Below, piece by piece: positions 6,279 to 40,160 of a stretch of DNA of 64,000 nt. Within the stretch, counting starts at the first letter, position 1, and every line of letters begins with the position of its first letter. Source of the DNA: an uncultured Opitutaceae bacterium (lineage in GTDB: Bacteria > Verrucomicrobiota > Verrucomicrobiia > Opitutales > Opitutaceae); the NCBI GenBank assembly GCA_937902925.1, contig CALFNN010000060.1, forward strand, positions 1 through 64,000, in the 5' to 3' direction. The notes below the pieces were generated by a model, which was not told the DNA's origin, ran no database searches, and saw only the letters and a list, made by a program, of their open reading frames with translations. Both the position numbers and the translations under genes were made by a program.

Positions 6279-6286
6279 AAAGAGGC

Positions 6287-9148: not shown

Positions 9149-9154
9149 GCGATC

Positions 9155-9179
9155 AATTCAGAAGCCATGAAGCCATGAA
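9155..9179 (+). repeat. Left inverted-repeat arm of the GxxExxY cassette
   Basis: This 25-bp arm contains the start codon of the enclosed gene (ATG at 9175-9177). It differs from the right arm at one position, T for G at the 14th base. Confidence 0.9.
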
Positions 9180-9564: not shown

Positions 9565-9566
9565 CT

Positions 9567-9591
9567 TTCATGGCTTCCTGGCTTCTGAATT
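9567..9591 (-). repeat. Right inverted-repeat arm of the GxxExxY cassette
   Basis: This is the inverse copy of the arm at 9155-9179. It ends only 4 bp before the uvrB ATG and so occupies the position where the uvrB ribosome-binding site would normally be. Confidence 0.9.
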
Positions 9592-9595
9592 AACC

Positions 9596-11632
<2,037 letters not shown>

Positions 11633-24817: not shown

Positions 24818-27106
24818 TCAGTTCGACGCGGGGGCCGGGCCGGTGAGATCGGCCTGGGCGCGGGCGAGGTTCGTTTTCGCTTCCTGATAATCCGGCGCCT
24901 CGTGCACGGCCTCGGCGAAGTGCGCCGCCGCCTCGCGCAGCCGGCCGCTGCGGGCGAGCGCGAGGCCGAGGTTGTTGTGCGCGCGGGGATTGGCGGGCTT
25001 GAGCCGGAGCGCCTGCTCGTAGTGCGGAATCGCATCGGCGTCGCGGTCGAGCGCAGCGAGGGCGTTGCCGAGATTGTTGTGGGCCTCGGCGTAGTCGGGA
25101 CGGAGGCGCACGGCTTCGCCGTAGGCATTCGCGGCGTCGGCAAATCGTCCGGCGGCGGCAAGGGCGTTGCCGAGGTTGTAGCGGGTCTCGGCGTCGTCGG
25201 GCCGCAGGCGGATGGCCTCGGCATAGGCCGCGAGCGCCTCGTCGAGGTGGCCGGTGGCGAGGAGCGCGTTGCCCCAGGCGAGACGGGCGATCGCGTCGTC
25301 GGGCGCAAGCTTGAGACCGGCGGCGAACTCGGCGTGCGCCTCCGGAACCTGGCCGGACTGCAGCAGGGCGTCGGCGAGATTGTAGTGGGCGTCGGCGTAA
25401 TTGGGGCGGAGCCGGAGAGCCTCGTGGAGGTGATCGAGCGCGGCGGGCACCTCGCCGCGGCGGAGCAGGGCATTGGCGAGTGCGTTGTGCGCTTCCGGGA
25501 AACGCGGCTTCGAGTGCAACGCACGCTGGTAACGGGAAAACGCCTCGCCGGTGTGCCCCAGCGTGTCGAGCGCGACGCCGAGATTGAGATTGGCCGCGGG
25601 AAAATCCGGCTCGAGGCGAAGCGCGATCTCGAGATGCGGAATCGCCTCGGCGGGCCGGCCGGCCTCGGTCAGGAGGTTGGCGAGGCTGGTGTGGGCCTCG
25701 ACATAGGCGGGACGAAGGCGGAGGGCGGCCTCGTATTCGGCCATCGCGTCGGACTTGCGGTCCACGGAGGCGAGCGCGACGCCCAGGCCGTAGTGGGCGA
25801 TCGCACTGGACGGGCGTTTCGCGACCGTGTCGCGCCAGAGGGAAATCTCGCTGCGGTAGTCGGTGTTGCGGCGGGCGGTCAGGAAGCCGAGCGCGAGCAC
25901 GGCCACCAGCAATCCGGCCGGCAAGCGACGCCCGAGCAGCGGGTAGACCGCCGGCACGACGAGCGCGAGCACGGCGGCGAGCGGCAGATACATGCGGTGC
26001 TCGACGATCATCTGGGTCGTGCCGGGCACAAGCGAAGTCGGCGCAAGGATCGCGAAAAACAGGACGCCGAGGAATCCGGCCGCGGGTTTGCGCCAGAGGG
26101 CGAGCAGGGTGCCGGCGACGAGCGCGATGACGAGGACGGCGTCGCCGGCGACGTCGGCGGCGTGTTGAATCCAGAACGTGCCGTAGTCGAAGACGAGCGG
26201 CTGCGGCCAGAACGACAGCGCGACGTAGCGCGTCAGCGCGGGAAACTGGGTGAGCAGGTAGCGCCCCCACGACACCCCAACGTCGAACCCCGCCGAACCG
26301 CCGCGGTCGCCGCCGGTGCTGAGCACGAGCGCACCGAGCAGAACCCAGGTTGCGAGCAGGCCGGCATGAAACCGCCAGCGCCGCCGCCACGCCGCGGCGA
26401 ACGTGCCGGCGACGAACGTGCGGTCGAAGAGAAAAACGAGGACGGGCGCGGAAACCATGTTTTCCTTCGTGGCCATGCCGAGCAGGCACGCGGCAAACGC
26501 CGCGGCCAGCCATCCGCGGCGGCCGCCGTCGACGAGAGCTTCGTCCGGCGCCGCGGACTCCACGGCGCGCACGAAGCAATAGAGCGTGAGGAGGTAGAAC
26601 AGCGACATCAGCGACTCGGCGCGCTGGGCCACGTAGCTGACCGCCTCGGTTTGGAGCGGGTGGACAATCCAGAGGGCGGCGACGGCGAAGGCCAGCCACC
26701 GCGCGGTGGCCGCACCGCCGAACCGGTCGCGCAGCGACGGTTGCAGCAACGTGTGGCGGACGAGTCCGAAGAGGGTGAGCCCCGCGAGCGCGTGGATCAG
26801 GAGGTTGAGCAGGTGATAGCCGGGCACCTGCGTGCCGCCGAGCGCGTGATTGATGGCGAAGCTGAGATTCAGGATCGGCCGGCCGGCGGCGGTCAGGCTC
26901 TCGGGTGGCGGCCGCAGCACCGCGCCGAGTTGCGCGAGATGTTCAAGCGAAGGGTTGTCGAGGATGGCGGCCTTGTCGTCGTAGACGAAGGGACCGGAGA
27001 GACCGTTCGCGTAGGCCGCGAAGGCGGCCAGCACCAACACCCGGCCGAGCCACGCGACATCGCGCGATCGGAGCGCGGAGGCGGGCGGGGCGGGTGAGGG
27101 GGGCAT
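24818..27106 (-). CDS. TMTC-like membrane protein with C-terminal TPR repeats
   Basis: This is a 762-residue protein. The N-terminal half (about 1-425) contains roughly ten membrane helices with the early motif GPFVYDDKAAILDNPSL, then RPILNLSFAINHALGG and WIVHPLQTEAVSYVAQRAE. This resembles GT-C-fold proteins such as eukaryotic TMTC (DUF1736). The C-terminal third is about nine tetratricopeptide repeats of 34 residues (for example YNLGNALAAAGRFADAANAYGEA). An O-mannosyl or other lipid-linked glycosyl transferase role is suggested by the fold but is unproven. The start at 27106 (MPPSPAPP) avoids a meaningless upstream extension. The gene converges on glmM. Confidence 0.82.
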   Translation of the reverse strand: MPPSPAPPASALRSRDVAWLGRVLVLAAFAAYANGLSGPFVYDDKAAILDNPSLEHLAQLGAVLRPPPESLTAAGRPILNLSFAINHALGGTQVPGYHLLNLLIHALAGLTLFGLVRHTLLQPSLRDRFGGAATARWLAFAVAALWIVHPLQTEAVSYVAQRAESLMSLFYLLTLYCFVRAVESAAPDEALVDGGRRGWLAAAFAACLLGMATKENMVSAPVLVFLFDRTFVAGTFAAAWRRRWRFHAGLLATWVLLGALVLSTGGDRGGSAGFDVGVSWGRYLLTQFPALTRYVALSFWPQPLVFDYGTFWIQHAADVAGDAVLVIALVAGTLLALWRKPAAGFLGVLFFAILAPTSLVPGTTQMIVEHRMYLPLAAVLALVVPAVYPLLGRRLPAGLLVAVLALGFLTARRNTDYRSEISLWRDTVAKRPSSAIAHYGLGVALASVDRKSDAMAEYEAALRLRPAYVEAHTSLANLLTEAGRPAEAIPHLEIALRLEPDFPAANLNLGVALDTLGHTGEAFSRYQRALHSKPRFPEAHNALANALLRRGEVPAALDHLHEALRLRPNYADAHYNLADALLQSGQVPEAHAEFAAGLKLAPDDAIARLAWGNALLATGHLDEALAAYAEAIRLRPDDAETRYNLGNALAAAGRFADAANAYGEAVRLRPDYAEAHNNLGNALAALDRDADAIPHYEQALRLKPANPRAHNNLGLALARSGRLREAAAHFAEAVHEAPDYQEAKTNLARAQADLTGPAPASN

Positions 27107-27293
27107 CGGGGAAAACAGGAAGGGGGGCGGCGACCGGAGGTGCGGAGGAGTGAGCCAGCAAATGTGCGGACACCCAGCCAAAAACGAAAAGCGGAAAATG
27201 CGCCGGGCCCGCGGGGCCGGTCCGCCGGACGCGTCTTCGCGCCGACTCTAGCGTTGACCGATTTTGGCGCCGGAGCTTCGCTCCGCTTCCCGT

Positions 27294-28688
27294 ATGCCCG
27301 AAGTTCCCGTCGCTTCGCTCGACCCCCGGCAGCAAAAGCTGATGGAGAACGCGCGCATCGCACTCGAGCGCGGCAACCTCGATTACGTGGCCGAGGTCAC
27401 CGCGCAAGTCCTGAAGGCGGCGCCCGGCTGTCTCCCGGTGCGGCGATTGCAACGCGTGGCGCAGTTGCGGCGGGCGCGCGGCAAGGGCGGTTTCATGGCG
27501 AAGACGCTGAGCGGTTTTTCCACGGCGCCGTTCATGCTCGGCGGCGGCCGGAAGGAGCCGGCGAAGCTGCTGGAGATGGCCGAGGGCTTTCTGGCGAAGG
27601 ATCCGACGAGCGTGCCCGCGCTCAAGATGCTGGCGGAGGCCGCCGGCGGACTCGGATTGCCGGAGACCGTGGCGTTTGCGCTCGACGCGATCCGCGAACT
27701 CGAGCCGGCGAACCGGGCCAACCTCCTGGCGCTCGGCGACGCGTGGCTGGCAGCCGGCAAGCCGGCGGACGCGTTGCGGATCGCGGACGAGATGCTGCGA
27801 ACGAAGCCCACCGATGGCGACGCGCAGAATCTCATGCGCAAGGCGTCGATCGCGCAGACCGTCACGTCGGGCAACTGGGAGTCGAAGGAATCTTTTCGCG
27901 ACAAGCTCAAGGACGAGGCGCAGGCGGTCTCGCTGGAACAGTCCGCGAAGGTCGTCCGGTCCGGCGACATGGCGCAGCGACTGCTCGCCGAGGCGCTCGA
28001 GCGGGTGGCGCGGGAACCGGCGAATCTCACGCATTATCGCGCGGTCGCGCAGGCTTATCGTCAGCAAGGCGACGTCGGCGAGGCGCTGGCGTGGGTGCGC
28101 AAGGCGCGCCAGCAGCCGGCGGGGGCGGCGGACGCCGCGCTCGAGAAACAGGAGAGCGAACTCGCGACCGAGCTGGTCGAGCGCCGACTGCAAGCGGCGG
28201 AAGCGGCGCTGGCGGCGGCGCCGGACGACCCGGCGGCGAAGGCGGCGCGGGAGGCGGCGGGCGCCGAGCTGGGGGAGTTCAAACTGGGCGAGGCGCGGCG
28301 CTACGTGGAGCGCTATCCGAACGACCATGCGGCGCGGCATGCGTATGGCGTGCTCTTGCTCGAGCGCGGGCAGACGGATGCGGCGATCGCGCAGTTTCAA
28401 CAGTCGCAGAAAGGTCCGCAGGTGCGCGTGGCGTCGCTGGTCGAGCTCGGCCGCTGTTTTCGGGCGAAGAAACTCTACGACCTCGCCGTCGCGCAACTGG
28501 GCGCCGCCAAGGCCGACCTCGGCGCGATGGACGAGCGGAAGAAGGATGTGATCTACGAGCTGGGCTCGTGCCTCGAACTGATGGGCCGGCGCGACGACGC
28601 GATCGCGGAGTTCAAGGCGATCTACAGCGAGGACATCGGGTTTCGCGACGTGGCCGAGAAGATCAATGCGTTCTATGCGAAGTCGTAG
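27294..28688 (+). CDS. Cytoplasmic TPR protein of unknown function
   Basis: This is a 464-residue protein without a signal peptide, rich in Ala, Arg and Glu helical repeats. TPR-like units include ALEKQESELATELVERRL and AYGVLLLERGQTDAAIAQF. A conserved middle block, FMAKTLSGFSTAPFMLGGGRK, is not a TPR. The start at 27294 (MPEVPVASLDPRQQKLMENAR) is preferred to an ATG ten codons earlier. The gene is divergent from the TMTC-like gene (187-bp gap). Proteins with this layout are common in the phylum but their function is unknown. Confidence 0.75.
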   Translation: MPEVPVASLDPRQQKLMENARIALERGNLDYVAEVTAQVLKAAPGCLPVRRLQRVAQLRRARGKGGFMAKTLSGFSTAPFMLGGGRKEPAKLLEMAEGFLAKDPTSVPALKMLAEAAGGLGLPETVAFALDAIRELEPANRANLLALGDAWLAAGKPADALRIADEMLRTKPTDGDAQNLMRKASIAQTVTSGNWESKESFRDKLKDEAQAVSLEQSAKVVRSGDMAQRLLAEALERVAREPANLTHYRAVAQAYRQQGDVGEALAWVRKARQQPAGAADAALEKQESELATELVERRLQAAEAALAAAPDDPAAKAAREAAGAELGEFKLGEARRYVERYPNDHAARHAYGVLLLERGQTDAAIAQFQQSQKGPQVRVASLVELGRCFRAKKLYDLAVAQLGAAKADLGAMDERKKDVIYELGSCLELMGRRDDAIAEFKAIYSEDIGFRDVAEKINAFYAKS

Positions 28689-28728
28689 GCCCAGCAGCCC
28701 GGTGCCAGGCCAACACAGAATTTACCCC

Positions 28729-29805
28729 ATGAAAAAAATCACAATCGCCCTCCTCGGGTTGTTCGCGGCAATTTCGTTCCCCGGCGCGGCGCGCGCCGGA
28801 GCGAAGGACAAGACCCTCGATGTCTACTGGGTCGACTCCGAGGGCGGCGGCTCGACGCTCATCGTGACACCGAACGACGAATCGGTGCTGATCGACGCCG
28901 GCAACCCCGGCACGCGCGACCCGGGGCGAATCATCGCGGCGGCGAAGGCGGCCGGGCTGACGAAGATCGACTATTTGCTCATCACGCACTGGCATTCGGA
29001 TCACTTCGGCGGGGTTGCGGAGCTGACCGCGGAGTTTCCGGTCGGCACGATCTACCAGCGCGCGCTGCCGGACACCGACCCGGATTTGCGCAACGACGCG
29101 ACGTGGGTGCTGCGCAGCAAGGCGTTTCGCGCCGTCACGGTGAAGCGCGAGTCGCTGGCACCGGGGGTGGCGATCCCGCTCCAGACGGTGAACGGTGGCC
29201 CGGCGCTCACGCTGCGCTGTCTCGCGGCGGACCAGAAATTCATCGCACCCACCGCGGAGCAACGCGCCCATCCCACCGCGGCGGGCACGGTCGTGGCGCA
29301 CCCGCCGGAGAGCGATCCGGATAACAACAACAGTGCGGTGTTCCTCCTCGCGTTCGGCGATTTCCGGTTCTTCGACGGCGGGGATCTCACCTGGGCGCTC
29401 GAACCGAACCTCGTCCAGCCCTACAACCTCGTGGGCAAGGTGGACGTTTACCAGACCGACCATCACGGACTCGATCGCAGCAACAACCCGCTGCTCATCC
29501 ACGGGCTCGCGCCGACGGTGGCGGTGATGAACAACGGTCCGCGGAAGGGCGGCCAGATCGGGGCGCTCACGACGCTCAAGGCGACGCCCTCGATCGAGGC
29601 GTTTTACCAGATGCACAAGAGCCTGAGCGTGCCCGCCGAGGCGAATACGCCGGACGACCACATCGCCAACCTCGCGGAGGCGCGGCCACCGGACAAGTGC
29701 ACGGCGAACTACATCAAGATGTCCGTCGCGGCCGGCGGCCGGAGCTACACGATCTCGATCCCGGCGAACGGTCACTCGCACACCTACCGCACGACGGCGA
29801 AGTAG
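28729..29805 (+). CDS. Secreted metallo-beta-lactamase fold hydrolase
   Basis: This is a 358-residue protein. A signal peptide (MKKITIALLGLFAAISFPGAARA) leads into an MBL domain. The metal-binding motif THWHSDHFGG includes His87, His89, Asp91 and His92. A later GDLTW and QTDHHGLDRSNNP supply further ligands. It resembles the ComEC/Rec2-related hydrolases that are exported or periplasmic. The substrate is unknown. The ATG at 28729 lies right after a run of non-coding sequence and gives the signal peptide directly. A likely terminator lies at 30076-30109. Confidence 0.85.
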   Translation: MKKITIALLGLFAAISFPGAARAGAKDKTLDVYWVDSEGGGSTLIVTPNDESVLIDAGNPGTRDPGRIIAAAKAAGLTKIDYLLITHWHSDHFGGVAELTAEFPVGTIYQRALPDTDPDLRNDATWVLRSKAFRAVTVKRESLAPGVAIPLQTVNGGPALTLRCLAADQKFIAPTAEQRAHPTAAGTVVAHPPESDPDNNNSAVFLLAFGDFRFFDGGDLTWALEPNLVQPYNLVGKVDVYQTDHHGLDRSNNPLLIHGLAPTVAVMNNGPRKGGQIGALTTLKATPSIEAFYQMHKSLSVPAEANTPDDHIANLAEARPPDKCTANYIKMSVAAGGRSYTISIPANGHSHTYRTTAK

Positions 29806-29868
29806 CAGGAGCGGCGCGGGTCCACCCGGTGGGATATCGCCGCGCGGATGCGATTGAGGGATGGTGAA

Positions 29869-29885
29869 CTACCCGGCACGGGTAG
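29869..29885. promoter_or_regulatory. Palindrome CTACCCG-N3-CGGGTAG upstream of the lipoprotein/patatin unit
   Basis: Perfect 7-bp arms around a 3-bp centre; no T-tract, so it is more likely an operator than a terminator. The TACCC/GGGTA halves recall binding sites of NarL/FixJ-type response regulators, which is only suggestive. Confidence 0.35.
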
Positions 29886-30075
29886 GGAATAGTTGTTGCC
29901 GATCGGAATTGCGGACGGGGAGCGCGCTGCGAGTTTTTCCGCGTCCCAGCCCCACGGCCGCCGGTGTCGCACCGCGGCCGCCACTCGATTTCGATGAGCT
30001 CACCCCAGTGTTGCGCGCTTTGGCGCAAGCGGGGCCGCACGCCGGCCGCCGCGCAGCGGGCTTTCCCCTTCGGCG

Positions 30076-30109
30076 ACCGGGAAGTTGTCCCGGTGATTTT
30101 TCTTATTTT
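30076..30109 (+). terminator. Probable intrinsic terminator after the MBL gene
   Basis: Arms ACCGGGA and TCCCGGT around a 5-nt loop are followed by a T-rich tract (30097-30109). It is the clearest Rho-independent-type signal in the window, but it lies about 270 bp past the MBL stop codon. Confidence 0.55.
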
Positions 30110-30140
30110 CCCGGGCTTTGCCCCGCCGGGCACCGGTAAC

Positions 30141-30162
30141 GTTGGAGTCCAGATACTCCAAC
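30141..30162 (+). promoter_or_regulatory. Leader hairpin abutting the lipoprotein start codon
   Basis: Arms GTTGGAGT and ACTCCAAC with a 6-nt loop end 2 nt before the ATG at 30165. The only Shine-Dalgarno-like GGAG (30144-30147) lies inside the left arm. The hairpin could therefore hide it and limit translation. Confidence 0.4.
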
Positions 30163-30164
30163 CC

Positions 30165-32207
30165 ATGAAAACATTCCGCTTCATCGTCGGCTGCCTTGGC
30201 AGCCTGCTGGCCTGCAGCTGCAGTTTCTTCCACCCGAGCCGCGATTACCTCTATCGCCCGACGTTGCTCGAAGTCGCGAACCCCCCTCCGAAAAAAACGG
30301 AATCGCCCGCGACTGACGGCAGCGATGCGGCGAAGACTGCCGTGCCGGCGGGGGCCGACGCGGACGGAAAACCGAAAACGATCAACGTGCCGACCGACGC
30401 CGATGTCCTTCAGTTCGCGAACATGCTGAAGAATGTTTTTCGCGGACAACTCAACGAGTCGATCATCGCGCGGCACGTGTCCGCGGTGAGCCAGGTGCTC
30501 ACGGCGGCGGCGGCAGCGACGCTGACGACGATCTCGTCGGGGGCGCAAAACTCCATCACGATCCTCGCCGCGACGAGCGCGGTCATGCCGCAGTTGCAGG
30601 GGATCTTCGATGCGAAGGGGCGCGCGGCGGCCTTCGATCAGGGCGGCGAGTTGCTGTCGCAGGCGGAAGCCGCGTATTACACGGCGATCGGGGCCCTGCC
30701 GGACAGGACGCCTGCGGAAAAAGCCGCGGCGGACAAGGGCGGCGCGGACGGGAACGCGGCGGACGCGCTGTCCGAGGACGTCAAGACGCGGATCAACCGG
30801 CGGCTGACGCCGCAGGGGGCGGCGCTCTACGCGGCGGCGCTGGCGGCCATCCAGGTCGTGGAGAAGCTGGAGGTGGCGCAGTTGCCGACGATCGACCAGA
30901 TCCGCGCGGCCAAGGGGGAATTCATCGCCGAGCTCGGGGCGACGCGCACGCAGACGATGGAGATTTCGTTTCCGATGGCCGATCCCACGAAGGCGCAGAC
31001 GATGCAGGTCAATGTGTCGGGCCTCGCCGAGGACAACGTCTCCTACTCGAGCGCCGGCGACGTGGTCGCGGCGAAGACGGACAAGGGTGCGCTGTCGCTC
31101 ACCGCGCTCAAGCCCGGCGACGCGCTGGTGACGGTGCTCCTGAACCAGAACGGGGCGACGCAGAAATTTCACGTCAAGACCTACGTCCCGTTGAAACTGA
31201 ACCCGCCGGGGCCGCTGCGGATCGAGAGCGCCGGCCCGATCGAGATCGCGGCTGTCGGGCAGAAACTCGCCGCCGCGACGTCGTCGGATCCGACGGTGGT
31301 GGCGCTGGCGCCGGCGGTGGATTTCACCAAGGGCGCGATCGACAGCGTGAAGCTGACGCCGTTGAAGGCGGGGCAGGCGACGATCTGGTTGACGGGCGAG
31401 CAAATGGATGCGGAGGCCGTCAAGGTAACCGTGGTGGCGGCGCCGCTGAAGGTGAAGCAAACGAGTCCGCTGGTGGCCACTGACGTGCCGACGGTCGAGA
31501 TCGAGGGCGACGGGCAAAAGCTGGCACGAGCCACGAGCAGCGATCCGGGCGTCGTGACCGTGACCTCGGCGGCGGACCCCGCGAAAGATCCGCTCGACAA
31601 GGTGGTGCTGACACCGCGCAAAGTCGGCACGGCTAAAATCGAATTGATGGGCGAGCATTTCGGGACGGCGACGATCACGGTGGCCGTGACCGCCGTGCCG
31701 TTGAAGTTGAAGCAATCCGATCCGCTGGAGGCGAAGGGCGTGGCGCCCGTCACGCTCGAGGGCGACGGACAGAAAATCACGGCCGCGACCAGCAGCGATG
31801 CGAGTGTCGTGAGCGTGGCGTCGGCCGACGACCTCGCGAAGGGCCCGCTCGACAAGGTGACGGTGAAGCCGAAGAAGGCCGGCGCGGCCACGATCCAGTT
31901 GAAGGGCGACCAGCTCGGCACCGGCAAGATCACGATCAACGTCGTCGCGGTGCCGTTGAAGCTCAAGCAGACGAGCCCGCTCGCCGCAAAAGTGGGGACT
32001 GGTTTTGACATCGAGGGCGACGGCCAACTCATCGCGACCGCGACCGTCGTCGACCCAGCGATCGCGGTGCTCGCGCCGGCGAGCGACCTGACGGCGGCGC
32101 CGCTGCCGAAAATCACGCTGACCCCACTGAAGGAGGGGAAGACGGACATCCATCTGACCGGCGATCAGCTCGGAGCAGCTACCCTTTCCATCGTCGTCAC
32201 CAAATAA
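30165..32207 (+). CDS. Lipoprotein with four tandem ~85-residue Ig-like repeats
   Basis: This is a 680-residue protein. The signal sequence ends in GSLLAC with a lipobox Cys near residue 17. A helical Ala-rich region (about 70-270) follows, then a beta-rich segment, then four tandem repeats of about 85 residues (roughly 340-680). Each repeat starts with a PLKLKQT-type strand, contains EGDGQKLARATSSD, and closes with an ITVAVTAV-type strand. The pattern suggests BIG2/Ig-like surface domains. The stop is 12 bp before the patatin gene, so the two form an operon. The family is not one I can name. It may display or tether the partner phospholipase. Confidence 0.75.
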   Translation: MKTFRFIVGCLGSLLACSCSFFHPSRDYLYRPTLLEVANPPPKKTESPATDGSDAAKTAVPAGADADGKPKTINVPTDADVLQFANMLKNVFRGQLNESIIARHVSAVSQVLTAAAAATLTTISSGAQNSITILAATSAVMPQLQGIFDAKGRAAAFDQGGELLSQAEAAYYTAIGALPDRTPAEKAAADKGGADGNAADALSEDVKTRINRRLTPQGAALYAAALAAIQVVEKLEVAQLPTIDQIRAAKGEFIAELGATRTQTMEISFPMADPTKAQTMQVNVSGLAEDNVSYSSAGDVVAAKTDKGALSLTALKPGDALVTVLLNQNGATQKFHVKTYVPLKLNPPGPLRIESAGPIEIAAVGQKLAAATSSDPTVVALAPAVDFTKGAIDSVKLTPLKAGQATIWLTGEQMDAEAVKVTVVAAPLKVKQTSPLVATDVPTVEIEGDGQKLARATSSDPGVVTVTSAADPAKDPLDKVVLTPRKVGTAKIELMGEHFGTATITVAVTAVPLKLKQSDPLEAKGVAPVTLEGDGQKITAATSSDASVVSVASADDLAKGPLDKVTVKPKKAGAATIQLKGDQLGTGKITINVVAVPLKLKQTSPLAAKVGTGFDIEGDGQLIATATVVDPAIAVLAPASDLTAAPLPKITLTPLKEGKTDIHLTGDQLGAATLSIVVTK

Positions 32208-32219
32208 GAGGAACCTACC

Positions 32220-35200
32220 ATGTCACAACCCATGACCGATTCAGGCGGAGCCCCCGGCGTGCCGGCGGCGATCCAGGGCATCTACCCGACGGCGCTCGCG
32301 GAAGCGGAACAGAAACTGGTCGAAGGACGGCGCGCCCGCTGGGACGGCGGCGCTGCGGGGCCGATTGCGGGGCTGGCGTTGTCCGGTGGCGGGATTCGCA
32401 GCGCGACGTTCTGCCTGGGTTTCCTACAGGCCCTCGCCGGTCGCAAGCTGCTCCAGCGTTTCGATTTTCTGTCGACGGTTTCCGGTGGCGGCTACGTCGG
32501 GTCGTTTCTCGGCGCGTGGATCAATCGTCGCGGCGACGCGGCACTCGTGCAGGACCGGCTGGCGCGGTCGGACAGCGCGCCGACGGTTTTCCTGCGCAAC
32601 AACGGTCGCTATCTCGCACCCAACGGCGCCGCCGATGCGATGGCGGCGATGGCGGCGTATCTGCGCAGCTGGCTGACGGTGTGGCTCGTCCTGGGCCTGA
32701 TGGCGTTCGGAGCCCTGCTGTTGGTGGAAACCGCCAAGATCGGGCTGAATCACAAAGCCTGGATGGATTCCCTCGCGACGACGGTGCCGGCGCCGGAGCA
32801 GGAAAAGGCAATCTCGATGGAGTCGAACGGGGCCGCGATCGCGACGACCGCCCCGGCGACCGTCGCAGTGACGACCGGCGACAAATCCGCCGTGCCCGCA
32901 GTGAGCGTGGCGGTGACGGTCGGAGCCGGAAAAGAGGAAGGCGTCCTCTCGCTGTTCAAACGTTACCTGCGCGTCAGTCCGTTTTTTGCGGTGGCGGGCT
33001 GGGTGCTGCTCCTGTTCGGATTGCCGGCGGCGGTGGCGTATTGGTTTGCCGGTCGGTCGATGGGCGTGGCGCTCATTTGGGTTCTCCTGCTCGGCATCGG
33101 CGCGACCATCGGTTGGGTGTGTGCGCGCGGCATGGTCGACAAGTGGAGCAACTTCAGTTGCTGGGCGCTCTGGGTGACTTACGGCCTGGCGTTCGCCCTG
33201 TCGGTTTGGGCGACCCTGCTGGGCGATCATCCGGACGTGCCCCGGAATACATTGAACGACTGGCTGTCCCTCGTGCTCGGGATGGCCGTGGCCGTGGCGG
33301 CGCTGGCGGTCGTGGACACGGTCGGGCTGACGCTCACGACCAACGGCGTCTGGTCGGCGGCGATTTTGCCGGCCCTGGCCGTGGCCGCGCAGTGGATGCT
33401 GCCGCGAATCATGGAGGGGACGAAGGACGAAAAGCGGAGCTGGTCGATGGCGGCACTGATCCCGGTCGGAGCACTGGTCGTTGGAATCATTGCGTTCGGC
33501 ATCCTCAGCAGGGAGGCACACCGGCTCGCGGGCGCGTTGATCCATCGGGTGTCCGTCCCGCAGGCGGACGCGATCCTGGTCGCGGCGGGAGTGGTGTTCG
33601 CGGTGGTGAGCGCTTTTCAATTTCGATCGATCAAGCGCACGGTGGCGGCGCTCGTGACGATCGCGGCGATTTGCTGGCTGGGGTGGTGGCTGGGAAATCG
33701 TGGCGGCGAGGTGCGGGCGCATGCGCTGATGGTCGCGGCGAGCGCAGGGGCGGTGATGGCGCTGGGAGCGCTGGTGGGTTTCAGTTTCGCGTTCGTCAAC
33801 CTGTCGTCGCACCACCGGCTCTATTCGGTGCGACTGACGCGGACCTACCTTGGCGCGTCGAACCCGGCGCGCACCGGGCGCGAGGAGGAGGAGAAAGGCG
33901 CGCCGGTCGGGGCGAGGCAGACGGACCCGCAGCCTTCGCCGCAGACGAAGGACCAGGTGCCTCTCGGCCGCGACGGGCGGGACGTGACCTCCGCGGTGCG
34001 CGGGGATCAGATTCCATTTCGCGAGTATCGCCCGCACGCCAGCGGCGGGCCGCTGCATCTGATCAACGTCACGGTCAACGAGACGATCGACGGCATTTCG
34101 CAGATCGAGGAAAAGGACCGTCACGGCTTCTCGATGGCCGTCGGCCCGGTGGGGCTCAGCGTGCGGACGAAGGATCACGCGCTGTTCGAGTCGGAATCCA
34201 AGACCGGACCCGACGCCGACCCTGGGAAGGGTCGATGGACGCGGTTCAAGGTTGGGCTGGCGAAAATCGCGCGGTCCACGCCGGACCGATTGCGGACATT
34301 GGGCGCCCAAGGCGAACGCGCCTGGCTCCAACCGGCCAAGGCGCAGAAATTTCACACGCTCGCCACGGAGGAAGGCGGGCGCTACTCGGTCGAGATGCCG
34401 GCGCTCGGCAGTTGGGTTGGAATCTCCGGCGCCGCCTTCACGACGGGACTGGGCGCCCGCACGAGTCCCGCAATCAGCTTCCTGCTCGGATTCTTCAACG
34501 TGCGACTGGGCTATTGGTGGGACAGCGGGATTTCCCCGGCCGCGCGCAAGAACCGGGCGGCGCGGGGCGCGGCGGTCGCGGGCGACACCTGGAGCCGGCT
34601 GTTTCCGGCGCAGTCGGGGCTGCTCGACGAGTGGCTGGCCCGGTTTCGTGGCGCGGCGCGGCGGTATTGGTATCTTTCCGATGGCGGGCATTTCGAGAAC
34701 ACCGCGGTCTATGAGTTGATCCGCCGGCGCGTGCCGCTGATCGTGTGCTGCGACTGCGGCGCGGACCCGAGCTACGAGTTCGAGGATGCCGGCAACCTCG
34801 TCCGCAAGGCGCGGATCGACTTTGGCGCGGAGATCACGTTCTGGACCGCCGGGGAAGTGGCGGCCGAGGGCAACGGGTTGTCGGCGTTGAAGGACGCGAT
34901 CGGTGCCATCGAAGATCTCAAGCCGGCAAGGAAAGGACCGGACAAGGGTCTGGCCCAGCGGCACGCGGCGGTGGCCTGGGTGACCTATGGCGACGGGGTC
35001 AGATCGCTGCTGCTCCTGGTGAAGCCGACGCTCAGCAAGAGTGTGCCGATGGACGTGCGGAACTACGACGAGACGGAGAGCGACTTTCCGCAACAGAGCA
35101 CGCTCGACCAGTTCTTCGACGAGGAGCAGTGGGAGAGTTACCGCAAACTGGGCGCGTTCAGTGGAGTAAGCCTCTTCGGCGAAAAGGCCGACACGTCATC

Positions 35201-35276
35201 GCCGGCGTGGGAGGCGTTGGTGGCGGTCGCGACGAAAGGCAGGCCGAGTCCTGACCGGTTGCAACCCGTCGGCTGA
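32220..35276 (+). CDS. Membrane patatin-like phospholipase with split catalytic dyad
   Basis: This is a 1018-residue protein. The oxyanion motif LSGGGIRSATF is at about 54-64. The nucleophile Ser88 lies in STVSGGGYVGSF, where the usual GxSxG has Thr in the first position. About ten membrane helices occupy roughly residues 150-540. The catalytic Asp of the DGG motif lies near residue 821 in YLSDGGHFENTAVYELI. The hydrolase core is thus interrupted by a large membrane domain. Lipid acyl hydrolase activity is expected from the dyad. It is co-transcribed with the lipoprotein 12 bp upstream. Related large patatins exist but their role is not settled. Confidence 0.82.
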   Translation: MSQPMTDSGGAPGVPAAIQGIYPTALAEAEQKLVEGRRARWDGGAAGPIAGLALSGGGIRSATFCLGFLQALAGRKLLQRFDFLSTVSGGGYVGSFLGAWINRRGDAALVQDRLARSDSAPTVFLRNNGRYLAPNGAADAMAAMAAYLRSWLTVWLVLGLMAFGALLLVETAKIGLNHKAWMDSLATTVPAPEQEKAISMESNGAAIATTAPATVAVTTGDKSAVPAVSVAVTVGAGKEEGVLSLFKRYLRVSPFFAVAGWVLLLFGLPAAVAYWFAGRSMGVALIWVLLLGIGATIGWVCARGMVDKWSNFSCWALWVTYGLAFALSVWATLLGDHPDVPRNTLNDWLSLVLGMAVAVAALAVVDTVGLTLTTNGVWSAAILPALAVAAQWMLPRIMEGTKDEKRSWSMAALIPVGALVVGIIAFGILSREAHRLAGALIHRVSVPQADAILVAAGVVFAVVSAFQFRSIKRTVAALVTIAAICWLGWWLGNRGGEVRAHALMVAASAGAVMALGALVGFSFAFVNLSSHHRLYSVRLTRTYLGASNPARTGREEEEKGAPVGARQTDPQPSPQTKDQVPLGRDGRDVTSAVRGDQIPFREYRPHASGGPLHLINVTVNETIDGISQIEEKDRHGFSMAVGPVGLSVRTKDHALFESESKTGPDADPGKGRWTRFKVGLAKIARSTPDRLRTLGAQGERAWLQPAKAQKFHTLATEEGGRYSVEMPALGSWVGISGAAFTTGLGARTSPAISFLLGFFNVRLGYWWDSGISPAARKNRAARGAAVAGDTWSRLFPAQSGLLDEWLARFRGAARRYWYLSDGGHFENTAVYELIRRRVPLIVCCDCGADPSYEFEDAGNLVRKARIDFGAEITFWTAGEVAAEGNGLSALKDAIGAIEDLKPARKGPDKGLAQRHAAVAWVTYGDGVRSLLLLVKPTLSKSVPMDVRNYDETESDFPQQSTLDQFFDEEQWESYRKLGAFSGVSLFGEKADTSSPAWEALVAVATKGRPSPDRLQPVG

Positions 35277-35315
35277 TGGGCCCCGCGGACGGGCGCCGGC
35301 GAGGAGGTGCGAATC

Positions 35316-36020
35316 TTACGCGGCGACCGCGTGGCGTGCGACGACAAGCGAGACGATGAGGTCGGCCGCTTGCGCGAGGTCGACGCGCCCCGTGTTGATC
35401 ACGACATCGTAGTTTGTCGGGTCGGGGCCGATTGCGTCGAAATGAGTTTGGACGTAGCGACGACGGGTGCGGTCCTGGTTTCGATTATGATCGGCCGCTT
35501 CCTCCGCGGAGACTTGGTGCCGTTTCGCCATCACGCGAGCGCGATGACCCACCGGCGCGACCAGTCGGACGTGAACGCCGTGCGGAAGGGCAGCGGTGGC
35601 AAAATTGGCGCCGCGGCCCACCAAAATGACATGGCCGGACCCCGCGAGCAGGCGGATGAACTCGTCGGTCTTTCGCGTCAATTCCCAGAGATTGGGATGA
35701 AGTCCGACCATTTCGCCAATGGTCGCCTCGATTTCCGACACCCGGGCTTCGGGCAGATAGCGCGCGAGGGTGGGCGGCAGGTGATTGGCGTGTAACATCG
35801 CGGCGATAAGGTTGCCGTCGAACACGGCCCACGGTTTGTGACCGTTGGTTTCGAGGCGCTGCTGGAGGAGCAGGGCCAGACTCGAGGCGCCGGCGCCGGC
35901 CTCGCGGGAAATGGTCACAAACGATCCACCGCGGGCACCCGGAACCGGGGTGCGCGGGTGCGCAAGCTGGTGGACATGGACATAGGATTCGGTTCTTTCC
36001 CGGCCGGCTTGGGCTTTCAC
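35316..36020 (-). CDS. Cytidylate kinase-like family protein
   Basis: This is about 234 residues from a GTG at 36020. The open frame extends 14 codons further to a TTG at 36062, but that extension crosses a perfect palindrome and has no family-like sequence. A P-loop-like VTISREAGAGASSLALLL is near the N-terminus, followed by VFDGNLI and GHVILVGRGANFAT. This fits the PF13189 kinase-like family, whose substrate is generally unknown and which need not act on CMP. The start remains uncertain. Confidence 0.7.
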   Translation of the reverse strand: MKAQAGRERTESYVHVHQLAHPRTPVPGARGGSFVTISREAGAGASSLALLLQQRLETNGHKPWAVFDGNLIAAMLHANHLPPTLARYLPEARVSEIEATIGEMVGLHPNLWELTRKTDEFIRLLAGSGHVILVGRGANFATAALPHGVHVRLVAPVGHRARVMAKRHQVSAEEAADHNRNQDRTRRRYVQTHFDAIGPDPTNYDVVINTGRVDLAQAADLIVSLVVARHAVAA

Positions 36021-36037
36021 AGTTATGGGCCGAAAAG

Positions 36038-36056
36038 TATATCGTATTACGATATA
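36038..36056. promoter_or_regulatory. Perfect palindrome upstream of the kinase-like gene
   Basis: TATATCGT-ATT-ACGATATA is a perfect, AT-rich 19-bp inverted repeat in otherwise GC-rich DNA, 18 bp upstream of the preferred GTG start. It is an operator candidate for a dimeric regulator. No regulator gene is adjacent. Confidence 0.5.
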
Positions 36057-36146
36057 TATCAACCGTGTTTTTCATCTCCGTCGTCGTCGCAGATGAAAGG
36101 GAGGCCGCAAACCTACGGCGGACCCGCCCGCGCTACCGCTGGCCAC

Positions 36147-36998
36147 TCAACCTCGCGAGCCGGCCGGCCGATACTCGGCGATCCACACCGCGGTTCCCAT
36201 CACGGCGAGGCTGGCCGTGAGCCACCCGACTTTCGCCTGCTCGTGAAAGACCACGAGCGAGACCACGACCGCGAGGGGCACCTTGGCGTTGTTCATTACG
36301 GCCAGGGTGCCGGCGCCGACCTTGGTCGCGCCGACATTCCAGAGGAAAAATCCGAGGCCGGCGGCGACGATTCCGAGGTAACCCAGGGTCCAGAGCTGCG
36401 CGGCATGCAGCGTAACCGTCGCGTTGCGTTGCACCAGCGCGATGGCCGCGACGGCAAACGCGCCGGCGTAGAGCAGGGCGAAGACTTCGCGATCGCGCAG
36501 GCCGGGACGCGCGGCACGGAGGCGCTTGTAGGCGATCTGGCCGACGGCGAAGGCCGCGTTGGAAAGCTGGACGAGGGCGAGGCCGTGGAGCGTGAGGTTG
36601 AGGCTGGTCGACTGCACGGTGACGAGAGCGGTGCCGATCACCGCCAGCAGCGCGGCAAGGAGGGCGCGCGGACGGAGCCGGCGGTCGAGCGCGTCGGCGA
36701 AGAGGGTCACCAGGATCGGCGTCGTGATGGTGAAGAGCGCGGCCTCGTAGGCGTGCAGGTAACGGAAGCTCTCGATGTAGGTGAGATACATGAACCCGAA
36801 CTGAACCGCGCCGATGGCGGCGAGCACGACGCCGGTGCGCAGCCCAAGACCCTTCCACCGCAGCAGCGGGAGAAACACCACGAACGCCAGGCCGAGCCGC
36901 GTGGCGGCGACGAAGGCGCTATCGACGCCGGCGAGGTAATGCTTGATCAGGCCGAACGAGAAAGCCCAGATGACGGAGACAATGAGCAGGAGCGCCAT
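36147..36998 (-). CDS. EamA/DMT family transporter
   Basis: This is a 283-residue protein with ten membrane helices arranged as two EamA repeats. Visible are an N-terminal LLLIVSVIWAFSFGLIKHYLAG, a mid-protein YAGAFAVAAIALVQRNATVTL, and the second-repeat motif LGFFLWNVGATKVGAGTLAVMNNAKVPLAVVVS. Drug/metabolite superfamily exporters move amino acids, nucleotides or drugs outward. The substrate cannot be read here. Confidence 0.88.
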   Translation of the reverse strand: MALLLIVSVIWAFSFGLIKHYLAGVDSAFVAATRLGLAFVVFLPLLRWKGLGLRTGVVLAAIGAVQFGFMYLTYIESFRYLHAYEAALFTITTPILVTLFADALDRRLRPRALLAALLAVIGTALVTVQSTSLNLTLHGLALVQLSNAAFAVGQIAYKRLRAARPGLRDREVFALLYAGAFAVAAIALVQRNATVTLHAAQLWTLGYLGIVAAGLGFFLWNVGATKVGAGTLAVMNNAKVPLAVVVSLVVFHEQAKVGWLTASLAVMGTAVWIAEYRPAGSRG

Positions 36999-37073
36999 GC
37001 GACCGGCATCGCGGCAGATTGGCGCGCGCGGGGCAAAACAAAGTTCGCCGGCGCCCGGTCCGATCCCGCCATT

Positions 37074-37799
37074 TCAGCCGCGGGTCGGCCTGAAGTGGAA
37101 CGTCGCCGTCTCGATCGCGATGGTCGGGCGACCCGCGAGGCGCGGCGGCTCGTAGCGCCATTGCTCGATCGAGGCGACGGCCGCGTCCGCGTATTCGGGG
37201 GTGGTGGATTCGAGCACGATCGGCACGCGGACACGGCCGTGTTCGTCGACGAAGAATTTCACCGTGGCGGTGCCCGCCGGCAGGCGGTCGAGGATGGCGC
37301 CCGAGAACTTCGGGAGCGTTTGCTCCACGGGCGTGGACGAGGAGTCGAGCGACGCGACCGTGGGGAAAATCATCGGCGGGTTGCTCTGGATGTCGGGCTT
37401 CGCCGCCGCGCCATGCGGGGGCAGGGAGACGAACGTGACGCCACCGGTATTGAAGAGGAAGCGGACGATCGGGACGATGGGCCGGTCGGGCGAGGCGCGG
37501 TAGGCCGGCCGTGCGAAGCGCCACTGGCCCACGGCGGAAACGACGGACTGGCTCAGGCTGGCGTTGGTCGAATTGAGCACGAGGACATCGGTGACACGAC
37601 CCTCGGCATCGCGGCCGACGGCGACGACCACGACGCCCTTGGTGTCGCCCGCGAGCCGGACCATCTCGGGGAACTCCGGCATGACGAACTTCGACAGATG
37701 CAACTGCCGGATCGCCTCGTCGAGGGTGGGTTCGCGGGCGACGAGACCGCTGGCCAGCGCCAGGCAAGCCAACCAGAGAGGAAGAGCGGAACGGCTCAT
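37074..37799 (-). CDS. Secreted protein with two TonB C-terminal-like domains
   Basis: This is a 241-residue protein. The ATG at 37799 opens a signal peptide (MSRSALPLWLACLALASGLVA). Two TonB_C-type modules follow, each with a strand of the form GVVVVAVGRDAEGRVTDV / TVKFFVDEHGRVRVPIVL and a later SVVSAVGQWRFARP / AVASIEQWRYEPP. It has no retained N-terminal membrane anchor or Pro-rich spacer, so it is not a classical energy-transducing TonB. It is probably a free periplasmic protein. Confidence 0.8.
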   Translation of the reverse strand: MSRSALPLWLACLALASGLVAREPTLDEAIRQLHLSKFVMPEFPEMVRLAGDTKGVVVVAVGRDAEGRVTDVLVLNSTNASLSQSVVSAVGQWRFARPAYRASPDRPIVPIVRFLFNTGGVTFVSLPPHGAAAKPDIQSNPPMIFPTVASLDSSSTPVEQTLPKFSGAILDRLPAGTATVKFFVDEHGRVRVPIVLESTTPEYADAAVASIEQWRYEPPRLAGRPTIAIETATFHFRPTRG

Positions 37800-38346
37800 G
37801 GGGGAAACCTCGTGGCCGGAACGATGACAGGAAAATCTTCCCGCGCAAGGCTGCGCTGCGAGACCCGGGGCCCGGAGACTCGAACCTTCGGACACCGAAA
37901 CGCAACAAGCTGCGTGACGGTTCACGCGCCGCTGGACCAGCCAGCGATCACCCAACCTTGGTCGAACAAGCCCGGGTGAGAGGGCAGCCGCGGCGAGACC
38001 ACTGATGCGGATTATGTGGGGGGGCGGTGCGCCCGAGGCCGCGAGAGCGCCGGGTGCGGCGTGCGGCCCAGTGATGCCGCAATGGTGGATCACGCCAACG
38101 CCCGGCCCCGAGGCAGGATTGGCATGGCCGGAAACATGCTCCGACGCGTTGTGGGGTTCGGTCTTTGTCAACTATTAGTTGACAACCTCTTCTTTCGCCA
38201 GGCCGGCGACCACTCGCAGATGTGGCGGAGATGTCGCGCCCTGTCCAATCCGCCCCTCCGTCCACTTCCGCCGCAATCATCGCGATCGACGAAAGGAGAA
38301 TACGCTTGGCCAAGGCGGTTCCGTATGGGGAAGCTCCAGAGGGGCG
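37800..38346. other. 547-bp intergenic region
   Basis: No protein gene is supported; the open frames here lack any family-like pattern. The one clear element is the perfect palindrome at 38165-38185. The region separates the TonB-domain gene from the ABC permease, both on the minus strand. Confidence 0.6.
38165..38185. promoter_or_regulatory. Perfect 21-bp palindrome, probable operator
   Basis: Arms TTGTCAACTA and TAGTTGACAA flank a single T. Arms this long with a single central base cannot form a normal RNA hairpin, so a dimeric repressor site is more likely. Each half contains TTGACA, the -35 consensus, so a bound protein would block promoters in either direction. The half TTAGTTG also occurs in the candidate MntR site at 42501-42515 (read on the minus strand). 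Confidence 0.55.
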
Positions 38347-40041
38347 CTACACCCGGAAAATCGCCCCGAGCTTCTTGCCGAGCAGCAGGCTCAGGCCGAC
38401 GATGGTCACGCCGAGGAAAGCCATCGCCCAGACTCCGAGGGCGCTGGCGATGAACTTGCCGTCGCCGAGAAGCTGGAAGAGTTCCATGATCGCCTTCGTG
38501 ATCGGGTAATACGCCTGCTTTTGCGCGAGGATGAGCGAGTCGCTGACCTCCAGCATCGCAAACGCGAAGGCGAGCAGGCCGCCGGCGATGAGATTCGCGG
38601 CGATGAGCGGGAGCGTGATCCTGACGAGCGCCTTGAGCGGCGGGCTGCCGAGGTTCTGCGCCGCCTCCTCGAGGGTTTCGCTGGTTTGTTGGAAACCGGC
38701 GGCGGCCGAGCGGACGACGTAGGGCAGCCGGCGGATCGAGTAGGCGATGATCAGCAGGATTGTCGGGTTCTGCACCGGGTTGAGAAACGAGAAGAATTTC
38801 CCGTCCTGCGACATCGCGAGGTAACCGAACGCCAGCACCAGTCCGGGCACGGCGAGCGGCAGCATCGCGAGAAAGTCGAGGATCTGGCGGCCGGCGATTT
38901 TCGAGCGGACGACGACGTAGGCGATCGCGATGCCGAGAAAAATGTCCACGATGGTCGAGGCGCTGGCGAACTTGAGGCTGTTGGCGATGGCGGGGACCGT
39001 GAGGTCGTGGCCGAGCGCGAGGCGGAAGTTGTCGAGCGTGTAGGCGTGGGGGACGACGGTGCCATACCAGTCCGTCGAAAACGCGACGAACACCACGCCG
39101 AGATGCGGCAGCACGGCGACCAGCGTGACGCCGGCGAACAGCGCGGTGCAGAGCCACGCGGGTCCGCGGGACAGGGCGCGCGCGCCGCCGGAACTGGTGG
39201 CCTTCGCCATCATCGCGTAGTTTGCGCGGCCGAAGATGCCCTTGCCGAGGGCGTAGAGTCCGACGGAGCTGGCGAGCATCACGGCGGTGAGTGCGTAGGG
39301 GAACGGGTTGCCGCCGATATCCTTCAGCCCGTAGTAAATCTGCACGCTGGTGACGCGGTCGTAGTCGAAGACGAGCGGCGTGCCGAGCTCGGTGAAGATC
39401 CAGATGAAAACGATGGTTCCTCCGGCGAAGAGCCCGGGCTGGATGAGCGGGAGCGTGATTTTCCAGAAGCGCCGGAGGCCCGTGCAGCCGAGGTTTTGCG
39501 CGGCCTCCTCCATCGCGGGGTCGATGTTGGCGAGCGCGGCGACGGCGTTGAGATAGATGATCGGATAGAGCGAGAGCGCCTCGACCGCGGCGACGCCCCA
39601 GAACTGGTTCGCCGCGAACCAGTCGATCGTCGCGCCGGGGGCGAGCAGGTGCAGATGGTGGAGGAGGGCGTTGAACGCGCCGTATTGCCCGAAGACCTGC
39701 TTGATGCCGATGGCGCCGACGAACGGCGGCAGGATCATCGGGATGAGGATGAGCGAGCCGAGGAGGTTCTTCGCGGGAAAGACAAAGCGGTCCGCGACGA
39801 CGGCCAGCGGCAGCGCCACCAGCACCGCGAGCGTCGTGCCGGCGCACGCAAGGAGGAAGGAGTTGCGCAGGCCGCCGAGGTAGAGCGGGTCGGACAGCAA
39901 CGCGCGGAGGTAGGCGAAGGTGAGATGGCCGTCGGCGTCGACGAAGCCGCCCCGGAGAATCTGGAGCACGGGCCAGACGAAAAACGCGGCGAAGAACGCG
40001 GCGGTCAGGCCGAAGACGAGGCGCGCGAAGTTCTGCGACAT
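38347..40041 (-). CDS. ABC importer permease, two fused transmembrane units (Fe(III) type)
   Basis: This is a 564-residue protein with about 12 membrane helices. Two binding-protein-dependent permease domains are present, each with an EAA loop that contacts the ATPase: MEEAAQNLGCTGLRRFWKI near 175 and LEEAAQNLGSPPLKALVRI near 460. The fused layout is that of FbpB-type permeases for Fe(III). The start at 40041 (MSQNFARLVFG) is preferred over upstream ATGs. There is no ATPase or binding-protein gene beside it. The pair at 12882-15728 is the likely partner. Confidence 0.9.
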   Translation of the reverse strand: MSQNFARLVFGLTAAFFAAFFVWPVLQILRGGFVDADGHLTFAYLRALLSDPLYLGGLRNSFLLACAGTTLAVLVALPLAVVADRFVFPAKNLLGSLILIPMILPPFVGAIGIKQVFGQYGAFNALLHHLHLLAPGATIDWFAANQFWGVAAVEALSLYPIIYLNAVAALANIDPAMEEAAQNLGCTGLRRFWKITLPLIQPGLFAGGTIVFIWIFTELGTPLVFDYDRVTSVQIYYGLKDIGGNPFPYALTAVMLASSVGLYALGKGIFGRANYAMMAKATSSGGARALSRGPAWLCTALFAGVTLVAVLPHLGVVFVAFSTDWYGTVVPHAYTLDNFRLALGHDLTVPAIANSLKFASASTIVDIFLGIAIAYVVVRSKIAGRQILDFLAMLPLAVPGLVLAFGYLAMSQDGKFFSFLNPVQNPTILLIIAYSIRRLPYVVRSAAAGFQQTSETLEEAAQNLGSPPLKALVRITLPLIAANLIAGGLLAFAFAMLEVSDSLILAQKQAYYPITKAIMELFQLLGDGKFIASALGVWAMAFLGVTIVGLSLLLGKKLGAIFRV

Positions 40042-40160
40042 CGGCGCGCAGTGTGCGTGGCGGGCGCGAAAGCCGGCAAGACGGAAAGAAACGGCGCGGC
40101 GGATCGAGGCGCCGCCGCGTTTTGGCTGGCGGGGATGCCGTCGCTGTGCGGACATTTCCC

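Follow-up and report, generated by a model that had tools for sequence, protein, structure and literature searches.

The subject of this analysis is a pair of adjoining genes, one for a lipoprotein (P0001) and one for a membrane-embedded patatin (P0002), in a 64,000-nucleotide stretch of a contig from an uncultured Opitutaceae bacterium (CALFNN010000060.1, positions 1 to 64,000), referred to below as the window. The genes lie in a segment that is absent from relatives, their domains and catalytic motifs are recognisable, the structural model of the patatin is cPLA2-like, and genes for lipoproteins with the same N-terminal domain recurrently adjoin genes for hydrolases. The reading we favour, at a probability of roughly 0.42, is that the pair is an acquired two-gene operon, made up of a leaderless inner-membrane phospholipase and an exported lipoprotein partner, and that it represents one case of a lipoprotein class with exchangeable hydrolases. 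The wider class of lipoprotein-hydrolase neighbours is probably meaningful. A limited search of the open-access literature gave no description of such a class, or of a cPLA2-like domain split by a membrane domain.

Gene pair and domain organization

Both genes lie on the forward strand, separated by 12 bp. The reading frames used were the homology-supported ones in this GC-rich window, and likewise in L011, L013 and L097 (L numbers denote loci, G numbers genomes). An open reading frame is abbreviated as ORF.

30165..32207, + strand: lipoprotein (P0001), 680 aa, without a Pfam or NCBIfam family up to E 0.1 (ORF and translation)
30165..30221, + strand: signal peptide II with lipobox region (LLAC17-S-C19), read from sequence and hydropathy
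30378..30953, + strand: N-terminal domain, about residues 72-263, containing two stretches of moderate hydrophobicity and judged by eye to be probably helical (profile and sequence comparison)
30939..31187, + strand: divergent Ig-like unit R0 (residues 259-341), by eye
31188..31442, + strand: Ig-like repeat R1 (sequence alignment)
31443..31697, + strand: Ig-like repeat R2 (sequence alignment)
31698..31952, + strand: Ig-like repeat R3, the one modelled (alignment, structure model)
31953..32204, + strand: Ig-like repeat R4 (sequence alignment)
32220..35276, + strand: membrane patatin / cPLA2-like phospholipase (P0002), 1018 aa, without a signal-peptide-like start (ORF, Pfam, model, hydropathy)
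32277..32624, + strand: N-terminal catalytic half, containing GGGIR (56-60) and the nucleophile, Ser88 (codon 32481-32483) (alignment, model)
32628..33860, + strand: about ten hydrophobic helices forming a membrane domain that interrupts the catalytic domain, with an 85-residue loop (170-254) after the first helix (hydropathy, model)
33861..35243, + strand: C-terminal catalytic half, containing DGG with Asp821 (codon 34680-34682) (alignment, model)

An earlier note on this DNA had described two genes 12 bp apart, the first for a lipoprotein with four Ig-like repeats of about 85 residues and the second for a 1018-residue patatin with Ser88 as its catalytic residue, and this description held: both ORFs are present where it had placed them, Pfam confirmed the patatin (E 1.7e-7), and Ser88 was invariant in an alignment with 16 relatives. 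P0001 begins with MKTFRFIVGCLGSLLACSC and carries a lipobox, LLAC (Cys17), read by eye, and a hydrophobic core by hydropathy, as in bacterial lipoprotein signals. The tandem repeats R1-R4, of 85, 85, 85 and 84 aa, fill residues 342-680 and align ungapped at 39-56% pairwise identity; the divergent fifth unit, at about 259-341, comes in addition. A model of one repeat, built on all four, was all-beta (pLDDT 80.9) and aligned with an S-layer Ig-like domain (Z 9.7), a Big_2 domain (Z 9.1) and the Ig-like domain of phage lambda V (Z about 9), which supports an Ig-like beta sandwich as the predicted fold of the repeats. Similar folds are found in the Ig-like or Big_2 repeats of SbsB, SbsC and intimin, and in lambda V (Z 7-10). 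Unlike the Big_2 surface proteins, P0001 gave no match to the Pfam Big_2 profile, and its repeats are joined to a lipoprotein domain that Pfam assigns to no family; a search of the PDB by sequence also gave no match for the lipoprotein.

In one homologue (L125 of G667, 7795-9126), the C-terminus consists of several near-identical proline-rich repeats of the PVTGGQQKPVFPGASQPGDPKA type, with no Ig-like repeats.

Hydrolase genes beside the lipoprotein N-domain

The N-terminal domain of P0001 (hereafter the N-domain) is the portion common to six other genomes, and in all seven a hydrolase gene adjoins the N-domain lipoprotein gene: DUF2272 in three, DUF900 in two, the patatin in the window, and a truncated PlaB-like gene in the last. 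In six of the seven genomes the hydrolase gene looks intact, has the same orientation as the lipoprotein gene and lies at a distance of 6-51 bp from it. DUF900 alpha/beta hydrolase genes stand 6 and 10 bp upstream in G214 and G175, while DUF2272 genes stand 51, 19 and 39 bp downstream in G124, G610 and G667, with GH19 also present in G124 and a 3D domain in G667. The 5'-truncated PlaB-like gene of G096, which overlaps the end of the lipoprotein ORF, is 59% identical to phospholipase PlaB of Legionella lytica; Pfam recognised no family in the fragment.

The pattern was recognised at five members, and the next two found (G610 and G667) both had DUF2272 directly downstream. As background, one of 266 class genomes contained DUF2272 (E <= 1e-8), and that one was G124, where the gene lies beside its lipoprotein; none of 14 control genomes was positive, and G610 and G667, which are DUF2272-positive, were absent from the matches and presumably not drawn. 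A rough binomial gave 2e-4 for DUF2272 in two of the six members besides G124, a value that is indicative only, as the background is a single match and the genomes are not independent. By hydropathy, none of the six untruncated partner hydrolases has a signal-peptide-like start (that of G175 read from an internal Met). PMC11878206 gives a low-probability lipoprotein signal for a Rhizobium DUF900 protein, so the leaderless state is not general to the DUF900 family. DUF2272 is placed among papain-like folds in PMC10318531, where its members are said to be possible peptidoglycan amidases.

At the G096 locus (L072), a TIR gene follows the truncated PlaB-like gene: 6019-6780 and 6611-7084, downstream of the lipoprotein and PlaB-like genes, hold a TIR-domain gene (TIR_2, E 2.9e-11) and a frame that is SIR2-like by eye, with no Pfam match.

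The main rival explanation, in our estimation a rather unlikely one, is an effector with its immunity protein, in which the hydrolase would be a toxin directed against other bacteria or against the cell itself, with the lipoprotein as its immunity protein in the envelope. Phospholipase effectors of the type VI secretion system (T6SS) with lipoprotein immunity proteins, Tle/Tli, likewise pair a lipid hydrolase with an envelope lipoprotein. The partner enzymes seen here (phospholipases, DUF2272, GH19) resemble antibacterial effector activities, a leaderless hydrolase with an exported lipoprotein is the layout to be expected, and the distribution is rare and patchy. According to PMC10318531, DUF2272 proteins may degrade the plant cell wall or be peptidoglycan amidases secreted into the periplasm of a competitor, Tse1 being cited, and PMC12419801 describes lipoprotein immunity proteins as well as two-gene systems that combine a Lipocone toxin with an effector of the patatin or alpha/beta-hydrolase type. 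However, the T6SS sheath (PF05943) was found in none of the eight genomes of the group, other T6SS genes not having been searched; in the same search E. coli was positive among the 14 control genomes. The sheath of phages and extracellular contractile injection systems (eCIS; PF04984) was above cut-off in none of the eight, with one sub-threshold match, in G214. The roughly ten membrane helices make the patatin unlikely as a delivered effector, Pfam recognised no toxin-delivery domain in it, and one N-domain serving four unrelated hydrolase types would be unusual for specific immunity. The pair thus differs from Tle/Tli in the lack of a T6SS sheath in the genomes tested, in having an integral-membrane enzyme, and in an N-domain common to unrelated hydrolases. 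A role in competition, raised earlier, is conceivable, with the absence of the sheath from eight of eight genomes counting against it.

A holin-like or export partner is a second explanation that turns on the N-domain, the two hydrophobic stretches of which would then provide a membrane passage or tether by which leaderless hydrolases reach lipid or peptidoglycan. Its appeal is that leaderless partners, several of them probably active on peptidoglycan or lipid, stand beside a protein with a hydrophobic pair, and that one of four N-domain members shows similarity to the SLATT two-helix domain (E 0.02-0.03; 0.023). This similarity is weak and under the curated cut-off, the stretches in P0001 have a mean hydropathy of about 1.2-1.3 over 19 residues and are alanine-rich, hardly classical membrane helices, and the patatin is already embedded in the membrane, making passage unnecessary. 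We regard this explanation as very improbable.

The membrane patatin

Pfam Patatin matched P0002 over residues 52-149, that is, over the first half of the domain only. G56-G58, R60, Ser88, Gly89, Gly90 and D821-G822-G823 were invariant in 17 sequences, P0002 and 16 relatives (alignment A4, covering 16 of 21 loci, with L004, L005, L008, L020 and L021 excluded). In a larger set of 33 proteins (excluding L005, L008, L020-L022, L061, L062, L075, L076 and L078), S88 was retained in 32 and D821 in all 33, the exception for S88 being a split gene. P0002 accordingly has the GGGxR oxyanion motif and the DG[GA] catalytic aspartate motif of the patatin/cPLA2 superfamily. A patatin gene in L057 (G211, 7087-11064) lies in two reading frames (265 + 1050 aa), with the break between the GGGIR/Ser part and the remainder, and may reflect a sequence error.

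In a model of P0002 calculated with 16 relatives, the two soluble halves meet and the structure aligns with human cPLA2 (1cjy_B) at Z 23.4 (3.8 A, 399 residues). Lower scores were given by PlpD (18.4), CapE (18.4), CapV (16.2) and plant patatin (14.9), and the best Foldseek match was also a cPLA2 (E 2.0e-3, probability 1.00); by sequence, nothing in the PDB fell below E 0.4. Across the two human cPLA2 structures (1cjy, 5iz5), the best structural matches of the catalytic domain, Z was 22-23 over 363-399 residues, and the GGGxR, Ser and Asp elements are presumably equivalent to the cPLA2 residues. Identity to cPLA2 is only 14-17%, however, the domain in P0002 is interrupted by about ten membrane helices, and no C2 domain was recognised in it. 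PlpD, CapV, CapE, ExoU and VipD share the superfamily fold (Z 11-18) and belong to Pfam Patatin; to our knowledge they are soluble or domain fusions, with no membrane domain between nucleophile and aspartate. The predicted fold places P0002 in the patatin/cPLA2 superfamily, and hydrolysis of envelope lipids is plausible from the modelled fold and the catalytic residues. The division of a cPLA2-like catalytic domain by a membrane domain is an unusual architecture for a phospholipase.

The fold shared with CapE and CapV (Z 18.4 and 16.2) brings antiphage defence into consideration, with P0002 as a membrane-degrading effector of the CapV/CapE kind, and the TIR gene after the G096 homologue might be added in its favour. 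A defence role had also been among the earlier suggestions, and it fared poorly: at E values up to 1 PADLOC gave nothing for the patatin, its single hit with the lipoprotein was weak (E 0.034), and among seven neighbouring window proteins (24902-40200) Pfam recognised no defence gene, and no cyclase or sensor gene. The adjacent cyclic-nucleotide synthase of the cyclic-oligonucleotide-based antiphage signalling systems (CBASS) with CapV or CapE is thus lacking among these neighbours. The CapE and CapV chains, at about 300-345 aa, are also far smaller than P0002, and the chance that defence is the function appears slight indeed.

Proposed mechanism

According to the reading that we favour, the catalytic domain of P0002 would be built from two halves and, since these flank the membrane domain, the Ser88-Asp821 dyad would be held at the surface of the inner membrane. 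The dyad most likely faces the cytoplasm, opposite the exported lipoprotein, because P0002 has no signal-peptide-like start by hydropathy, and the cell's own membrane phospholipids would be deacylated; we infer this topology, as the model has a mean pLDDT of only 64.6 and is poor in its membrane part. P0001 would be exported and lipid-anchored, with the N-domain and its two hydrophobic stretches as the conserved part, from which the string of Ig-like repeats may reach into the periplasm or beyond. As the extracytoplasmic partner it would position or restrain the hydrolase, and may couple its activity to the state of the envelope. The two genes would be co-transcribed and their products would presumably interact physically, with control tentatively running from lipoprotein to enzyme and the partner acting as regulator, immunity protein or adaptor. 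Across the class, the N-domain would work with leaderless hydrolases that are exchangeable for one another, their probable targets being lipids or peptidoglycan.

A broader proposal is more tentative, and we consider it doubtful. It holds that a constant N-terminal 'handle' with a variable C-terminal reach (Ig-like, proline-rich repeats or other tails), encoded beside unrelated leaderless hydrolases, constitutes an undescribed envelope system, in which the handle would act on the hydrolase at the membrane by gating, restraining or releasing it, in the service of self-lysis, envelope repair or T6SS-free competition. The hydrolases beside the handle in the seven genomes are the split cPLA2-like membrane phospholipase, PlaB-like, DUF900, and DUF2272 with or without GH19 or 3D domains. 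If true, enzymes that cut lipids and enzymes that cut peptidoglycan would share the lipoprotein handle as a control element, probably in Verrucomicrobiota, and the loci described here would give concrete partners.

Probable acquisition of the segment

At six of the 11 same-family loci fetched, the genes for a TPR protein and a metallo-hydrolase, which precede the pair in the window, are followed directly by the EamA gene, with 9-116 bp between the aligned ends compared to 6341 bp in the window. This empty site lacks both the pair and a cytidylate-kinase-like gene; the other five loci had no EamA gene within the fetched flank, in two cases because the contig ends. The empty site in six relatives fits an earlier description of the pair as 'self-contained'. 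The evidence favours gain of the segment of about 6.3 kb in the window lineage over its loss in the relatives, because a close relative of the patatin sits in another family. At the borders of the segment, direct repeats did not exceed 9 bases, nor inverted repeats 10 bases.

35316..36062, - strand: cytidylate-kinase-like gene, inside the extra segment and absent from the empty site (Pfam E 2.8e-23)

This gene is probably not functionally part of the pair. Its GC content at third codon positions (GC3) is 71%, compared to 81-90% for seven other genes measured between 27264 and 40200, and a value of 75% was obtained for the ORF at 24902-27097, which may not be a gene. A relative of it occurs elsewhere in two of the six empty-site genomes.

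That close patatin relative is in G011, which belongs to the same class but to another family. The window protein pairs with it in a 33-patatin tree (59.4% identity, support 1.000), apart from the patatins of the same-family genomes G093 and G117. Directly upstream of the G011 patatin is a lipoprotein gene, recognised by eye, 76 bp from the longest patatin frame, so that an upstream lipoprotein gene is present in both members of this subclade (2/2). The G011 lipoprotein, in which Pfam found no family, has an N-domain of another family (A2, the window type being A1) and a tail that is PKD-like by eye. Family A2 was found in 10 of 272 class genomes and in two plasmid records, both alphaproteobacterial, where DUF2272 genes follow the A2 lipoprotein genes. 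A DyP peroxidase gene lies two genes away in G181. Among these A2 loci, the neighbours in G268, G132, G185 and G049 were inspected without a Pfam scan, and in G003 one neighbour was scanned.

In L099 (G224, 1777-2757), a TrwC-relaxase match barely above cut-off (25.9 vs 25 bits) stands directly before an A2-type lipoprotein gene and hints at a mobile element.

Distribution, and points against the proposal

Among 286 class genomes, 14 carry a relative of the patatin, spread over 12 of 138 genera. Relatives are also present in named records from, among others, Pseudomonadota, Planctomycetes and Verrucomicrobiota, and 28 plasmid records carry members of the family, always at <60% identity. The full-length lipoprotein matched in 4 of 286 class genomes, and a profile of its N-domain in 7 of 384; a phylum-wide draw with a four-row profile gave 2 of 387, the window's genome and G124. 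The plasmids gave no match to the N-domain, and no viral contig was confirmed with a relative of either protein; with the plasmid patatins all <60% identical, a phage- or plasmid-borne module was rejected.

Several observations weigh against the proposed reading. The two class lists, taking the two 286-genome draws to be one sample, overlap in the window's genome only; G124, G610 and G667 were found after this comparison; the first of these was probably part of that sample, and the other two lie outside the patatin search. The earlier expectation that the two families would travel as a pair therefore failed, as they occur mostly apart, and an exact conserved pair is rejected. The 'two-gene module' inferred earlier does not survive as a literal conserved pair, but does in the looser sense that the N-domain is beside a hydrolase gene in seven of seven genomes (one truncated) and that the G011 patatin is also downstream of a lipoprotein gene. 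Gene order varies as well, the hydrolase coming first in G214 and G175 and the lipoprotein in the other five. Homology of the A1 and A2 N-domains was not demonstrable with hhalign (P 0.49; 0.026 and 0.069), a hydrolase recognised by Pfam is next door to A2 in only four of 12 cases (the G011 patatin, the two plasmid DUF2272 genes and a Lipase_3 gene in G009), and the A2 neighbour in G136, which looks like an alpha/beta hydrolase by eye and has no Pfam match, carries its own lipoprotein signal. For the enzyme, the strict GxSxG motif is replaced by TVSGG, with Thr instead of Gly at -2; the model is of modest confidence and poor in its membrane part, and Foldseek found no PDB match for it at E <= 0.001. 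Lastly, 4 of 31 other patatins have a first-loop segment of at least 127 residues, i.e. of the window's length or more.

That loop was considered as a feature specific to lipoprotein-paired patatins, as a hydropathy count had suggested, and was not upheld by alignment: across the 33 proteins, the segment after the first membrane helix measures 127 in the window, 243 in G011 and 58-155 in the 31 others.

The same distribution could mean that there is no functional link at all, and that a patatin of general lipid turnover and an unremarkable surface lipoprotein are neighbours by chance. The other 13 of the 14 patatin-bearing class genomes have no match to the lipoprotein, and most patatin relatives looked at either stand alone or have neighbours of other kinds. 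The 12-bp spacing argues otherwise, as do the N-domain beside a hydrolase in seven of seven genomes, the coupling to DUF2272 against a background of 1/266 (with the rough binomial given above), and the upstream lipoprotein gene in the sister lineage; chance adjacency is, on these grounds, distinctly unlikely.

Leader region

Upstream of the pair, the earlier note had placed a terminator, an operator-like palindrome and a leader hairpin. The first and last were located:

30076..30104, + strand: terminator-like hairpin with a 7-bp stem and the T-rich tail GATTTTTCTT (-12.2 kcal/mol, z -1.76)
30141..30162, + strand: perfect 8-bp inverted repeat, GTTGGAGT-N6-ACTCCAAC, a leader hairpin or single-copy operator (folding against shuffles, genome scan)

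Both fold modestly better than shuffled sequence, with 8 of 200 shuffles as good for the terminator-like hairpin (30076-30094) and 13 of 200 (z -1.78) for the inverted repeat, which ends two bases before the ATG of the lipoprotein gene. Terminator-like sites numbered 13 in 6 kb, compared to 5.1 +- 2.9 in shuffled sequence. The operator-like palindrome, taken as 30034-30057 (80% complementary), was not confirmed: the GC-rich stretch in which it lies showed no folding advantage over shuffled sequence (z 0.39, equalled by 124 of 200 shuffles). The inverted repeat is the sole copy of TTGGAGT-N(4-8)-ACTCCAA in the genome and therefore marks no regulon, so that a role as a regulon operator was ruled out. 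A scan of the leader found no sigma-70-like promoter.

GMC-patatin fusions and other patatin loci

The same membrane patatin occurs in fusions with a GMC oxidoreductase (e.g. L006, L015 and L059), the seven in alignment A4 being 36-37% identical to P0002. These differ from P0002 in an added N-terminal GMC domain, and their partner is a diheme-type cytochrome-like gene rather than a lipoprotein gene. The fusions are about 1550-1730 aa long and comprise L006, verified by Pfam, and by similarity L007-L010, L013, L015, L018, L058-L060, L062 and L073; L006, L008 and L062 are near-identical. A cytochrome-c-like gene is upstream in 13 of 15 long-form patatin loci (with two CxxCH motifs in each of the 11 counted), L061 and the contig fragment L005 having none, and a DUF4331-like gene is nearby in 10 of 15. 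The GMC-patatin and cytochrome loci form an unusual redox-plus-phospholipase gene group. Elsewhere, a patatin gene directly precedes a gene for an Endonuclease_NS and lamin-tail protein (L014, 9645-10982), and another directly precedes a gene whose product resembles an alpha/beta hydrolase by eye (L012, 9475-10290).

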